Of a stretch of DNA of 64,000 bases, positions 30,907 through 47,091 are shown one piece after another. Origin of the DNA: Neoarius graeffei (lineage: Eukaryota > Chordata > Actinopteri > Siluriformes > Ariidae); assembly GCF_027579695.1 (NCBI RefSeq), contig NC_083577.1:29669698-29733697 (forward strand), given 5' to 3'. The notes beneath the pieces are model-generated. The model was not told the DNA's origin and ran no database searches. It saw only the letters and a program-made list of their open reading frames with translations. The translations under genes and the position numbers were made by a program. Within the stretch, counting starts at the first letter, position 1, and each line of letters begins with the position of its first letter.

Positions 30907-31039
30907 ACAGTCTTTGTCTATCTCTCATCCATCAAGCAGTCATGGCATTTGCAACATGCACATCACCTTTGAACATTTGATGAATATATGACATGTGACT
31001 GTTTTGTTGGGTGGCGGAACGTCCTGGGTTGCGGAACCA

Positions 31040-41233: not shown

Positions 41234-41453
41234 TCTTGGTGGACTACCAGGTGAAAATGATTAGTATGGTACAAGAGACTTGTTTTTAATCAATTCACAT
41301 TTGATGATTTCAAAAAAAATCAATGCACCTTTTAATATAAACGAGCTCTACAGTATTATATTTCTGCATGTTTGCTATTCATGTCTTTGAATCCTCTAAT
41401 CCTTTAAAATGAAGTGCAAACCAGAAAAAAGTTCTATCATATAATTCTCTTAA

Positions 41454-42094
41454 AGTGCCATTCCACCATTGGATGTATTCTTTGGCATAAAATACAATAT
41501 ATTTTATGACAACATGACTAGACAGAGAAATCTTTTAGCTTCAAAATGATATATCAAACATAATTTTTTGACAATGACAAGTATATTAATTTTGCGACCA
41601 AAGTCACCTACCCTTTTAATTTCCGCGCGGTAGTGAAACGTGATGTCATCGGCGGGTTCCCCTTCTTGTGTACCACGTCACGTGTGACATGGCACAGATT
41701 ATCAGCAATGGCGGATAGAACGCGATTGTCAGCTTCGGAAAAGAAGCGAAGGAAAATAGCAAGTGATGCCCAAAGGAGACGGTCGATGGCGAATATCGGC
41801 ACAGCAATCGACAAGTGGAAATCGCGTTCTATCCGCCATTGCTGATAATCTGTGCCATGTCACACGTGACGTGGTACACAAGAAGGGGAACCTGCCGATG
41901 ACATCACGTTTCACTACCGCGCGGAAATTAAAAGGGTAGGTGACTTTGGTCGCAAAATTAATATACTTGTCATTGTCAAAAAATGATGTTTGATATATCA
42001 TTTTGAAGCTAAAAGATTTCTCTGTCTAGTCATGTTGTCATAAAATATATTGTATTTTATGCCAAAAAAATACATCCAATGGTGGAATGGCACT
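41454..42094. mobile_element. Fold-back DNA element with 274-bp inverted arms and TTAA flanks
   Basis: The left arm (41454-41727) and right arm (41820-42094) are inverted near-copies around a 92-bp loop. ttaa lies on both sides (41450-41453 and 42095-42098), which fits piggyBac-type target use. Arms start agtgccattccaccattgga. Element C starts 14 bp to the right. Confidence 0.9.
41708..41845 (+). CDS. Short coding exon in the loop of the fold-back element
   Basis: atggcgg opens MADRTRLSASEKKRRKIASD and continues with ANIGTAIDKWKS, a basic, exon-like segment with the look of an N-terminal leader of a fish transposon or host protein. The ATG is in the left arm and the rest mostly in the loop. 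Past 41820 it reads into the right arm and loses sense. Function unknown. Confidence 0.45.
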   Translation: MADRTRLSASEKKRRKIASDAQRRRSMANIGTAIDKWKSRSIRHC

Positions 42095-42107
42095 TTAAGC
42101 TTTCTTC

Positions 42108-42112
42108 TGATG
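42108..42112. repeat. tgatg target duplication, left of element C
   Basis: Matches 47087-47091. It directly abuts the 18-nt primer-binding-like extension, not the LTR. Confidence 0.85.
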
Positions 42113-42130
42113 TCCTGGGTTTCGGCACCA
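42113..42130 (-). other. Extra primer-binding-site copy outside the 3' LTR of C
   Basis: tcctgggtttcggcacca, identical to 46731-46748. It follows the LTR end (gctaca) after one base and precedes the target duplication. LTRs of A and B lack it. Confidence 0.85.
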
Positions 42131-42131
42131 C

Positions 42132-42229
42132 TGTAGCAAGTGTTCTAGGTGGGTGGAGCACAGAAGCACGGCAGGCCAGTACTGAGTTCTCAATAACTCT
42201 TTTATTGTCAGCTTTTCAGCTTCTACACG

Positions 42230-42289
<60 letters not shown>

Positions 42290-42435
42290 CTGGTCAGGAG
42301 GGCTCCCTTCCTCTGCTTGCTGGGAAGACACAAACACAGGTTAATTCACATCAGGTGTAGTGATTCTGCCACTTACCATCCCCGACTCCGCCCTCCGGTC
42401 ACAGACGGACACTTGGCCACGCCCCCACTGCCACA
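42132..42435 (-). repeat. 3' LTR of element C
   Basis: 304 bp. Matches 46750-47086 apart from (CA)n length and a 29-bp block with the TATA-like region. Reads tgtggcag...gctaca on the minus strand. Confidence 0.92.
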
Positions 42436-42896
42436 TACCCCCACCACCCGACTCAGGCCAGGCAGCCGTCCGGCCCGCAGCCGACTCCCCCCCCTTGACG
42501 GGAGAGGAAGTCCGCCACGACCATCTGCACCCCCGGCCTGTGGACCACCTTGAAGTTAAAGGGTTGGAGTGCCAGATACCAATGGGTGATCCGCACATTG
42601 GCATCCTTCATGCGGTGGAGCCACTGGAGGGGCGTGTGGTCCGAACAGAGGGTGAAAGGGCGCCCCAGCAGGTAGTAATGGACGGCGAGGACCACCCACT
42701 TGATGGCCAGGCACTCCTTCTCTATGGTGCCGTAGCGCCCCACATGCACTGACAGCTTTCGACTAATGTACAGCACTGGGCGATCCTCCCCCTCCACCTC
42801 CTGGGACAAAACAGCCCCCAGCCCTCTGTCTGACGCGTCCATCTGCAATATAAAAGGGAGAGAAAAGTCAGGGGAGTGTAACAGTGGCCCCCCCAC
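42436..42896 (-). pseudogene. RNase H of element C
   Basis: LQMDASDRGLGAVLSQEVEG, YGTIEKECLAIKWVV, FTLCSDHTPLQWLHRMKD and VQMVVADFLSRQGG: the complete RNase H domain to the natural end of pol, followed by a purine-rich tract (ggtggtgggggta) before the 3' LTR, likely the polypurine primer. Confidence 0.9.
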
Positions 42897-43900
42897 ACAG
42901 TGCAGCCTTTACCTCAGAAAAAGCCCGCTGGCATTACACCGTCCACTGGACCGGATCTGGTGCCCCCTTTTTAGTGAGATCAGTCAGCGGGCTGGTGACG
43001 TCCGAATAGTCAGCGGGCTGGTGACGTCCGAATAATTAGGTATAAACCTACGATGATAGCCAGCCAGCCCCAGGAACTGTCTCACCCCCTTTTTGGTCTT
43101 GGGCCTCGGGCAGGCCGCAATCGCTGCAGTCTTGTTGATTTGGGGACGCACCTGCCCATTGCCCAAGTGGAAGCCCAGATACCGTACTTCCACCCGCCCA
43201 ATCGCACACTTCTTCGGGTTGGCTGTGAGACCCGCCCGCCTCAGCGACCTAAGGACGGCCCTCAGGTGTTGTAGGTACCGCGGCCAGTCATTACTATAAA
43301 TAATGATGTCGTCAAGGTACGCGGCAGCATAGGTGGCGTGGGGGCGGAGGACCCTATCCATCAGCTGCTGAAACGTAGCAGGCGCCCCAAACAGCCCAAA
43401 AGGAAGTGTGACGAACTAGTGTAAGCCGAACGGTGTGGAAAAGGCAGTTTTTTCTCGGGATAATGGAGTCAAGGGGATCTGCCAATAACCCTTTGTCAAA
43501 TCCAGGGTCGAGTAAAAGCGAACCGTGCCTAGTTGATCGAGCAACTCATCAATACGAGGCATTGGGTACGCATTGAATTTAGACACCACGCTGACTTTTC
43601 TATAGTCTACACAGAACCGGACCAACCCGTCGGCCTTGGGTACCAAGACCACCGGACTGCTCCAGTCACTGTGGGACTCCTCGACAATGCCCATTTCGAG
43701 CATGGCCTCGAGTTCTTCCCGAACCACCTTTTTCTTGTGTTCGGGCAGTCTGTAAGGGCGGCTGCGCACTACCACCCCCGGGGGCGTCTCAATGAGGTGT
43801 TCTATGAGGTGGGTGCGGCCGGGCAGGGGCGAGAACATGTCAGAAAATTCTGTTTGCAACTGGGCGACCTCCGCGAGCTGGGTCGGGGAGAGGTGGGCTC
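42897..43900 (-). pseudogene. Reverse transcriptase of element C
   Basis: PGVVVRSRPYRLPEHKKK, SDWSSPVVLVPKADGLVRFC, STLDLTKGYWQIPLTPLS, YLDDIIIYSNDWP, QINKTAAIAACPRPKTKK. An in-frame TAG lies at 43416-43418 in GLH-FVT, and a 26-bp direct duplication at about 43000-43050 adds a frame change before RNase H. Catalytic residues are otherwise intact. Confidence 0.92.
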
Positions 43901-45197
43901 CACAGGGGACCGGAGCGGTGGGTGATGCCAATTTTCCCTTTTGAACCTCCGGCCCCAGCTCCACCTTCTTGGGAACCACCGACACCAGTGCCACGGGGAC
44001 CTCCTCGCTCCAACGTTTTAACAGATTGAGGTGGTATACCTGTAACGCCCCACCCTTGTCCGTTCGCCTCACCTCATTGTTGACGTCCCCGACTCGCCGT
44101 GTGACCTCAAAGGGTCCTTGCCACCTGGTGATTAATTTAGAGCTCGATGTGGGCAATAACATGAGTACTTTGTCTCCCGGTGTGAATTCCCTAAGGCACG
44201 TGCTCCTGTTGTACAGGCGGACTTGACGTTCTTGAGCCTGCCGCAAATTCTCCTGGGTTAGGTGTGTGAGTGTGTGGAGTTTTGCATGCAGGTCAATAAA
44301 GTATTGAATCTCATTTTTGCTCGGTGAAGGTCCCTCCTCCCAATTTTCCTGCAGCACATCTAGGATGCCGCGCGGCTTCCGCCCATATAATAATTCAAAT
44401 GGGGAGAACCCCGTGGAGGCTTGTGGGACCTCTCGCACTGCGAAAAGCAGGGGTTCGAGCCATTTATCCCAGTTACGTGCGTCCTCGCTTACAAATTTTT
44501 TAATTATGTTTTTGAGGGTGCAGTTGAACCGTTCGACTAAGCCGTCCATTTGTGGGTAATAGATGCTGGTGCGGATCGGCTTGATTCCCAATAACCCATA
44601 CAGTTCGCGCAGTGTGCGTGACATGAACGTACTGCCTTGATCAGTCAGAATCTCTTTGGGGATTCCGACTCGGGAGATAACGTGGAAGAGTGCTTCCGCA
44701 ATACTACCTGTGGAGATATTGCGGAGTGGCACTGCTTCTGGATATCACGTTGCATAGTCCACCAGAACTAATATAAAGCGGTACCCTCGTGTTGACCGAT
44801 CTAATGGCCCGACGAGATCCATCTCAATTCTTTCGAACAGGGTCTCGATTAATGGGAGAGGGCGCAAAGCTGCTTTTGGAATGGCCACTGGATTTACTAA
44901 CTGGCATTCGCGGCACGCCGTACACCACCTACGGACATTGCCGCGAATCCCTGGCCAATAGAACCAGCCCACTATTCGGGCTAGTGTCTTATCCTGCCCT
45001 AAGTGTCCAGCCATGGGATTAAAGTGAGCCTCTTGAAATACCAATTCCCGGCGGCTCTTTGGGATCAAAAGTTGGGTTATTTGTTCCTTAGTTTGAGTGT
45101 CCTGCGTCACTCGATATAATCTATCCTTAATAATGGAGAAATAGGGGATGGACGGGGTGGCGTTTGGCCGGAGCATTTGACCATGGATTACTCTCAC
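43901..45197 (-). pseudogene. Integrase of element C
   Basis: HHCC module (AHFNPMAGHLGQDKTLARI, WCTACRECQLV), DDE core with D in EMDLVGPLDRS, D in EILTDQGSTF and E in DGLVERFN, then the GPFEVTRRVGDVNNEVRR C-terminal fold. One TGA (44745-44747) sits where copy A has CGA. It lies upstream of RT in the same frame. Confidence 0.92.
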
Positions 45198-45227
45198 TTG
45201 GTCAAATGCATGCCGCAGAGACTTGTC

Positions 45228-46148
45228 TCATGACTGCTCTAACGGGAAATCCGTGAGGGATTCCCCAAGAGAGGGAGGAGGAGCCTGCTGCTCCTCACTC
45301 TGATGCGGGGATGACATAGACGGCTCTGTGACAGCTGCTCCCGCCAACGCCACTCTGGGACCTCCCCCCGCTGAACTACGGCAGGACCCACTCTTCACTA
45401 AGTGCGTCATTAAATCCCAAAATCCCGGCCAATCAGTCCCCAAAATTATAGAGTGGGTGAGATGAGGATTAACTGCTGCCTGAACTCTAAATTTCTCCCT
45501 TCGAAACAGAATGTGGACCGACACGAAAGGATAGTTGTGAACATCCCCGTGCACACACAACACCTTCACCAATTGTGCTCCCCCCAATGCCTCATTTTGC
45601 ACCAGGCTTTGGTGGATTGAGGTATGATTACAGCCAGAATCCACCAAAGCCTGATACGTATCCCGTTGGATACTCACCGGTATGCAATACGCTCCGGCCC
45701 GATCGAGGGCGGTTCCTGGCGCGTCAGGGATCCAGACCACCGCGCCCACCTCCATCACCGAGTACTGATGCTGGGGGTGCCCCGGCTCCCCGCAGCGCCA
45801 ACACACCGGCCCAGGCTCTCTCTCTGCACCAGTGTTCCGGATATCACTCACCTGAGGGGGGGAGACACAGACACGGAAGTAGGAAACGGTAGGACACCGT
45901 GGGTGCGGCGGGCCGGCTGGGGTGGAGCCGGCCCCCACCTCTGCGGTGGGGGAATGGGGCGAGGGAGAGGAACAGAAGGGGAGAAAGAGAGAGAGGGGAG
46001 AAGGGGAGACACACTGTCCTGCCATTGGAACGGTCGCCATATGGTCCTCCGCCAGCTCAATGGCCTGATCCAGCAATGCCGGGCGATGGCACTGGACCCA
46101 CTCCACGGTTCCCTCTGGAAGTCGAACGACGAACTGCTCCAGCGCCAC
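45228..46148 (-). pseudogene. Gag C-terminus, zinc knuckle and protease of element C
   Basis: Gag end (LVALEQF-like), proline/serine linker, knuckle CWRCGEPGHPQHQY with the last cysteine changed to tyrosine, protease YQALVDSGCNHTSI and SIILGTDWPGF. It ends at TGA 45228-45230, where A has CGA, and then continues in the same frame into integrase. Confidence 0.9.
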
Positions 46149-46160
46149 CAGATCGATGAT

Positions 46161-46705
46161 CTACTCAGCGTCGCGGTTGTCGGCTCTCAGCCACCGGTGG
46201 CGGGCGTCCTGGAGTTGCTGGCCAAATGCGAATGGCCGGCCGACCTCCTCCAGGCGCAGCGCGTGGAAGCCCTGCCACTGCTGCTCCAGAGTGCGACCCA
46301 CGCATTGGAGGACGGCTCTGCGGAGGTCCGCATACACCAGCCGGCTGTCGGCGGGGAGCTGTAGCGCGGCCAGCTGCGCCTCGCCCATGAACAGGGGGAG
46401 GAGGCGCGCCGCGCGCTGTTCCACCGGCCAACCCCACACCTCTGCTACCTGCTTAAAGAGAGCGAGGAAGGCCTCGGGGTCGTCGTGCGGCCCATCTTCG
46501 TCAAGGTGAGGTGGGAAGGGCCCGCGGTGGTGGACCCCGCCGACGCGAGTAGGTGCCGGAACGCCCGGCAATCTTCCTGCTGCACCAGCACCAGGGCCTC
46601 AAACCTTCGCTCCTGTTCTTCCCGGAGGGCGACCAGCGCCTGATGCTGGCTCTGTTGGGCTGTGGCGAGGGCATGGACCAGGTCCTTGAAGGGGGAGGAC
46701 TCCAT
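46161..46705 (-). pseudogene. Gag N-terminal and capsid part of element C
   Basis: Start ATG at 46705 (MESSPFKDLVHALATAQQ), 26 nt after the PBS. A frameshift near 46540 moves to the main pol frame (DGPHDDPEAFLALFKQVA, RRAVLQCVGRTLEQQWQGF). TAG at 46161-46163 ends this segment. Confidence 0.85.
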
Positions 46706-46730
46706 GGGGCTGTTCTCTTCCTGCCCTCCG

Positions 46731-46748
46731 TCCTGGGTTTCGGCACCA
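46731..46748 (-). other. Primer-binding site of element C (tRNA-Phe type)
   Basis: On the minus strand tggtgccgaaacccagga starts one base after the 5' LTR. It is complementary to the 3' 18 nt of eukaryotic tRNA-Phe as I recall it, with one mismatch in the T-stem. Priming by tRNA-Phe is an inference. Confidence 0.78.
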
Positions 46749-46749
46749 C

Positions 46750-46853
46750 TGTAGCAAGTGTTCTAGGTGGGTGGAGTACAGAAGCACGGCAGGCCAGTAC
46801 TGAGTTCTCAATAACTCTTTTATTGTCAGCTTTTCAGCTTCTACACATTTACT

Positions 46854-46900
<47 letters not shown>

Positions 46901-47086
46901 CACACACGTGTTCTGGTCGGGAGGGCTCCCTTCCTTTGCCCTCTCTCTCCTTATATAGGGCGTGGTTGCTGGGAAGACACACAAACACAGGTTAATTCAC
47001 ATCAGGTGTAGTGATTCTGCCACTTACCTTCCCCAACTCCACCCTCCGGTCACAGACCAACACTTGGCCACGCCCCCACTGCCACA
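46750..47086 (-). repeat. 5' LTR of element C
   Basis: 337 bp, tgtggcag start at 47086. Contains tataaggagagag and a long (GT)n (seen as CA at 46859-46898). Confidence 0.92.
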
Positions 47087-47091
47087 TGATG
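47087..47091. repeat. tgatg target duplication, right of element C
   Basis: Partner of 42108-42112. Confidence 0.85.

Follow-up and report, generated by a model that had tools for sequence, protein, structure and literature searches.

Why does an LTR retrotransposon carry a second copy of its primer-binding site (PBS) outside its 3' LTR, inside the target-site duplication (TSD)? This question is raised by element C, which occupies positions 42132-47086 on the minus strand, as read directly from the window (i.e., the whole 64,000-nt stretch of Neoarius graeffei DNA that was analyzed). An earlier note on this DNA had suggested that C integrated with a copied end of its tRNA primer still attached. 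On the element strand, the order is 5' LTR, G, PBS, internal region, 3' LTR, G, 18 nt, and TGATG; the plus-strand sequence is TTTCTTC-TGATG-TCCTGGGTTTCGGCACCA-C-TGTAGCAAG.. across the left border and ..CTGCCACA-TGATG-TTATC across the right one. Direct reading bore out the arrangement that the note had described at both ends. More specifically, the outer U5 end consists of a spacer base, 18 nt, and TGATG, with the 18 nt (42113-42130, TCCTGGGTTTCGGCACCA) being letter for letter the same as the internal PBS (46731-46748), and at the opposite end the LTR terminates at position 47086 (..CCACA) with TGATG directly after it (47087-47091), i.e., the U3 end is flush with the duplication.

C has the structural features of an LTR retrotransposon, namely two TG..CA LTRs, a PBS adjoining the 5' LTR, and a TSD. 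A Pfam search of the open pieces revealed, in order along the element strand, a protease-like region (an aspartyl-protease match under the Pfam cut-off), integrase, reverse transcriptase, and RNase H (Table 1). Since integrase lies upstream of reverse transcriptase and RNase H, an order that we take to be that of Gmr1-like Ty3/gypsy elements, C is classed from its sequence as a Ty3/gypsy-type LTR retrotransposon that is Gmr1-like by pol order. Its LTRs are 304 (3') and 337 (5') nt long and differ at 15 of 304 ungapped columns, or at 8 of 244 (K2P 0.034) when the TG-repeat tract is left out, and C is not a new insertion. In addition, a 26-nt block that includes a TATA-like stretch is present in the 5' LTR (46750-47086) and missing from the 3' LTR (42132-42435).

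Table 1. Features of element C and of its borders (positions in the window)
Feature	Positions	Strand	Basis
TSD TGATG, beside the extension	42108..42112	.	direct reading and empty sites
Putative 18-nt copy of tRNA-Phe nt 59-76, outside the 3' LTR; element strand TGGTGCCGAAACCCAGGA	42113..42130	-	
Spacer, 1 base (element-strand G); the same base separates the 5' LTR from the internal PBS at 46749	42131..42131	-	
3' LTR, TG..CA	42132..42435	-	LTR alignment
Internal region, open pieces only	42456..46160	-	Pfam on open pieces
RNase H, RT-type	42456-42908	-	Pfam
RVT_1, remainder	42987-43415	-	Pfam
rve (25.5 bits, below the cut-off of 32.6), integrase C-terminal domain, and start of RVT_1	43419-44744	-	Pfam
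H2C2 (integrase zinc-binding)	44748-45227	-	Pfam
Internal PBS, identical 18 letters	46731..46748	-	direct reading
5' LTR; U3 end flush with the duplication	46750..47086	-	direct reading and LTR alignment
TSD TGATG, beside the 5' LTR	47087..47091	.	direct reading

The calculated chance of this 18-mer occurring at one fixed place is ~1.5e-11, which rules out a chance origin of the extension, and the only other match to it in the window (both strands, ≤4 mismatches) lies at 31022 with 2 mismatches. The further claim that the LTRs of elements A and B in the window lack the extension was also correct, with the ends of both placed by eye: the 3' LTR of A ends in ..GTTACA followed by ATGATG, and that of B in ..CACAACA followed by GTCC. 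The exact length of the retained piece requires a comparison with other copies. The G at position 42112 is found before the internal PBS as well, and both sides of C have TGATGT. Because the G and T beside the join are thus shared, C alone would allow a piece of 17, 18, or 19 nt. The 5-bp duplication rule in related copies, together with the empty sites described below, sets it at 18 nt: with a duplication that is 5 bp long and abuts the U3 end, the other join has to fall directly after TGATG, i.e., at the end of the 18-mer.

When the flanks of 8 LTR pairs from related copies were compared, 7 pairs had a shared stretch of exactly 5 bp that directly abuts TG..CA. Two of these seven (L063/L064 and L066/L065) have one flank in common and may represent a single locus that was duplicated. 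The eighth pair, L071/L072, is tandem-like, with L071 being an LTR that lies between a PBS and a PPT-like stretch. At least this one relative is therefore arranged as in a tandem array, and the PBS outside C might analogously have been left by an assembly or recombination artefact in which a tandem (LTR-internal-LTR) collapsed. A tandem would run on into the leader, whereas in C the PBS stretch ends after 18 nt, directly at a duplication that is intact, and we consider such an artefact very unlikely.

We looked for an empty site in the neighboring palindrome and did not find one there; copies elsewhere in the genome supplied it. The joined flank of C, CTTTCTTCTGATGTTATCATAGTAGCAGG, was searched against the 2.34-Gb genome with ≤3 mismatches allowed, yielding 901 matches, 3 of them exact. 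In the four unoccupied copies that were fetched, the right flank aligns to that of C over 381-420 nt at 92.6-94.8% identity, and all four contain TGATG only once at this place and lack the PBS stretch. These alignments place C inside a dispersed repeat for which the unoccupied form is available, and TGATG is its true duplication, a point on which the proposal of primer retention had been made to depend. The neighboring palindrome itself (41450-42098) is a long-palindrome element with TTAA on both flanks that is missing from the four fetched empty repeat copies; it looks like a piggyBac-type non-autonomous insertion and lies 9 bp from C's duplication.

We then scored genomic copies for the extension, as the earlier note had suggested. 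The C-type LTR end has 1131 matches in the genome (≤3 mismatches), and the next two counts rest on the 100 exact ends listed of these 1131, with 30 loci read. The 30 loci contain 30 distinct LTR-end sites, 14 of them inner ends with a PBS and 16 outer ends, and the extension was found on none of the 16. Likewise, in 26 same-strand LTR pairs, 2.5-12 kb apart, formed from the same 100 of 1131 ends, the PBS pattern occurred at 18 inner ends and at 0 of 26 outer ends, so the extension is not a feature of most copies. A strict search for PBS-LTR junctions returned 130, and among the 100 listed only C's two lie on the same strand within 12 kb. Exact T-type junctions (i.e., those with C's PBS letters) number 23, comprising C's own two, 19 with an ordinary leader, and two that are rearranged (L042 and L008); among these, the extension occurs in C only.

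These data also bear on whether the 18 nt could simply belong to the LTR of the subfamily or to the target site, with nothing retained. The outer ends of relatives are flush with TG..CA, which rejects ordinary LTR sequence, and the fetched empty targets are without the stretch, which rejects target-site sequence; this explanation is already refuted, and we assign it a negligible probability.

In addition, we screened for PBS-LTR junctions without an internal leader. Three screens produced 161 (100 listed), 24 (all listed), and 136 (100 listed) matches, with calculated random-flank pass rates of ~50%, 9%, and 9%, respectively, and a wider screen was too broad (3286 matches, 100 listed). Rows were sorted by eye on 8-12 letters, so that misjudgement is possible, and 29 doubtful rows were read. 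Among the matches listed, no second copy with an extension and a 5-bp duplication was found besides C. In L102, L103, and L106, the upstream sequence is possibly host flank, and no 5-bp match with the flank past the other LTR end was found; L112, whose U3 end was not found in the next 600 bases, is a candidate only. Within the copies examined, the extension is a rare event.

The origin of the block was addressed through the tRNA genes. In tRNA-Phe genes, nucleotides 59-73 with CCA added read TCC(C/T)GGGTTTCGGCACCA, and nucleotide 58 is A. Using a search pattern with the acceptor end fixed as TTTCGGC, which covers only variants inside that pattern, we obtained 39 tRNA-Phe-like matches, 14 with T62 and 25 with C62. 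ARAGORN called tRNA-Phe (GAA) in every one of the 30 loci, of these 39, that were submitted to it, and 5 of the 11 T-type genes read have an intact GCCGAAA start. Nucleotides 59-76 of tRNA-Phe, which the earlier note had named as the source of the block, are thus corroborated, with both T62 and C62 versions of the 18-mer at hand. The 18-nt match of C takes in the CCA, which is not encoded in eukaryotic tRNA genes. As for genomic distribution, 31 of the 39 matches lie within G000:C1:18.6-30.4 Mb, 0.06-1.84 Mb apart, with C62 and T62 mixed.

Both the extension and the PBS of C carry T at tRNA position 62. Comparison of this T-stem base with the tRNA-Phe genes of the species had been proposed as a check, and its outcome was divided: the T isoform does exist (14 of 39), and therefore a U62 primer is possible, but CpG decay explains the T equally well. 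Among the 100 of 130 PBS-LTR junctions listed, the variant-base CpG reads TG in 23 and CA in 27, about as decay alone would give; with both isoforms present in the genome, T62 was rejected as proof of tRNA copying. Unlike this first CpG, the second CpG of the PBS, in the same 100 of 130 junctions, reads CA far more often than TG (46 versus 9); this may reflect a PBS form that was inherited or a tRNA variant that matches it.

The extension lies at the U5 end, which is the side of tRNA attachment, and stops at tRNA nucleotide 59, adjoining A58. In HIV-1, synthesis of plus-strand strong-stop DNA halts once 18 nt of the tRNA have been copied, a stop that depends on m1A58 in vitro (PMC9317671). By analogy, we infer that this tRNA-Phe carries m1A58. 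Since no base differs between the extension and the internal PBS, a tRNA-copied block and a copy of the PBS itself would be indistinguishable by their letters.

Later repair also has to be weighed, in which, through gene conversion or break repair, a 3' LTR end broken after a normal insertion would have copied the U5-PBS stretch of a 5' LTR and rejoined the flank. The LTRs of C differ at only 1 of 97 columns on the U5 side versus 7 of 147 columns toward U3, and the sequences at the join have one base (G, 42112) in common, as this scenario would allow; the asymmetry is not significant (P = 0.15). Copying would also need to end precisely where the PBS ends, and the rejoining to fall precisely at the intact duplication, neither of which anything predicts. 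We therefore judge later repair to be unlikely.

Collectively, the proposal that C integrated with a copied tRNA primer end is supported, the extension being absent from the outer ends of relatives and TGATG holding as the duplication: the linear cDNA of C very probably integrated with the tRNA-copied plus-strand end still on U5. This tail is normally removed. The tRNA primer would have been attached to the minus-strand 5' end, where U5 of the 3' LTR has its edge and where the extension is found, and reverse transcriptase would have copied it up to A58 (with m1A58 assumed by analogy with the HIV-1 primer tRNA). The tail could have been kept by either of two routes. In the first, the tRNA would have stayed on the minus-strand 5' end and been copied when the plus strand reached it; in the second, plus-strand strong-stop DNA would have remained untransferred, with its tail single-stranded, and another molecule would have served the second transfer. 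Both routes fit and would leave the same sequence. Integrase would then have joined the 3'-OH of the tail (..CCAGGA), without the usual terminal CA, and the U3 end would have been joined normally 5 bp away, with any tRNA flap being removed by host repair. That the duplication has the normal 5 bp suggests that integrase joined both ends. Several points speak against retention: there is one copy only, known from the genome assembly; its extension has the same letters as the internal PBS; and the HIV-1 analogues discussed below make a normal 5-bp duplication on a non-CA end unexpected.

Several other PBS junctions in the genome are unusual. In L042, L082, and L084, the PBS is joined straight to gag (L042) or integrase codons. 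At the corresponding places, relatives read CCGGGA (L042, 7 of 11 rows; L082, 2 of 4 rows) or GGGA (L084, 3 of 4 rows). Both strings match the end of the PBS form that is most frequent (50 of the 100 junctions listed of 130, at that site). The longest exact runs shared with the present letters are 3 (L042), 4 (L082), and 4 (L084) nt, being short because L042 and L082 differ at CpG; L107 has a similar join with no exact shared run. The L042, L082, and L084 joins would fit a misplaced second transfer of an 18-nt tail, and a DNA-level deletion between short direct repeats would fit too. Given this alternative, and because the screen selected intact PBSs, these joins support an 18-nt end weakly.

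A second class is inverted. L008, L083, L085, L104, and L109 have an inverted LTR/PBS/LTR structure with 89-97% inverted complementarity across the PBS, as determined by BLAST, which found no such complementarity across the PBS of L103, L110, and L112. L083 and L104, located on different chromosomes, have nearly the same inverted junction, so this structure may have multiplied. L109 (G000:C14:52994150-52994560) is a mini palindrome composed of a shortened LTR, the PBS, and an inverted LTR, with a U3 end on both sides; its arms are 62 nt long with 3 mismatches, and the fold-back begins directly after the 18-nt PBS copy. Among the matches listed, G000:C1 also contains opposite-strand PBS-LTR junction pairs (18666536/18667384, 26863082/26863967, 30748752/30749637, 35187724/35188359, and 47415902/47416731) that are 0.6-0.9 kb apart and have nearly the same leader, which we regard as a recurrent inverted element. 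We treat the fold-back palindromes and the PBS joins as leads, not as proof.

The remaining junctions are more varied. For L105, relatives match only up to 13 nt before its PBS, and L113 has a weak match of ≤77% (three rows shown for each). In L102 and L103 (with L118 and L117), an LTR with an 18-nt PBS stands beside non-leader sequence, with a different flank past the U3 end. At L106/L116 (G000:C10:59513370-59514100), the PBS of the LTR is joined, without a target duplication, to a repeat at TCC..GGGTTTCG, presumably a SINE. At L108 (G000:C6:82738200-82738510), the leader runs into an incomplete repeat of the PBS start, which lies right before the PBS.

If C did retain its tRNA-copied end, it is a single fossil of a failed removal, of a kind known in retroviruses and found here with a normal duplication. 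In vitro work and virus cultures have established both primer removal and the stop that the tRNA imposes at A58; C appears to preserve the primer-removal step in a genome in which the unoccupied site is also available. C suggests that a clean CA end is not a strict requirement of integrase, and that genomes may be mined for the tRNA isoform that served as primer and for the point at which reverse transcriptase halted. It is conceivable, if somewhat doubtful, that a Gmr1-like integrase can carry out full two-ended integration, correctly staggered by 5 bp, even when the U5 end has 19 nt in excess and no CA; the genome would then hold a fossil record of primer-removal errors.

In the open-licence literature searched, we found no report of tRNA-end retention in Gmr1-like elements and, judging by titles and the beginnings of abstracts, no earlier report of such a genomic copy. 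Mules, Uzun and Gabriel (1998) reportedly described replication intermediates of Ty1, a copia-type element of yeast, with 'untidy ends'; going by that title, this is LTR-retrotransposon cDNA with irregular ends, like that proposed for C. Like Gmr1-like elements, C has integrase before reverse transcriptase and an RT-type RNase H. Over half of frog Gmr elements are reported to carry a SCAN domain (PMC4131045); the SCAN-like gag match of C (PF02023) scores 26.4 bits, just under the Pfam cut-off of 27.

The closest parallels come from HIV-1. In Mre11-deficient cells, U5 (3') junctions with 2, 4, 11, or 15 nt of the PBS have been described, and the authors suggest that Mre11 may affect correct tRNA cleavage; a figure legend of that report also mentions MLV junctions with partial PBSs (PMC2797772). 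Three abnormal HIV-1 proviruses were read at both ends, and the 5' junction was normal in all of them. Two of these carried PBS nucleotides, one with a 2-bp repeat and one with none, and the third had a single inserted G and a 3-bp repeat (PMC2797772). These cases are vectors in cultured cells, whereas C is a copy in a genome assembly. Like the HIV-1 junctions given there, the extra U5 sequence of C continues into the PBS while the other end is normal; unlike them, C keeps all 18 nt together with a normal 5-bp duplication, rather than a shortened or missing repeat.
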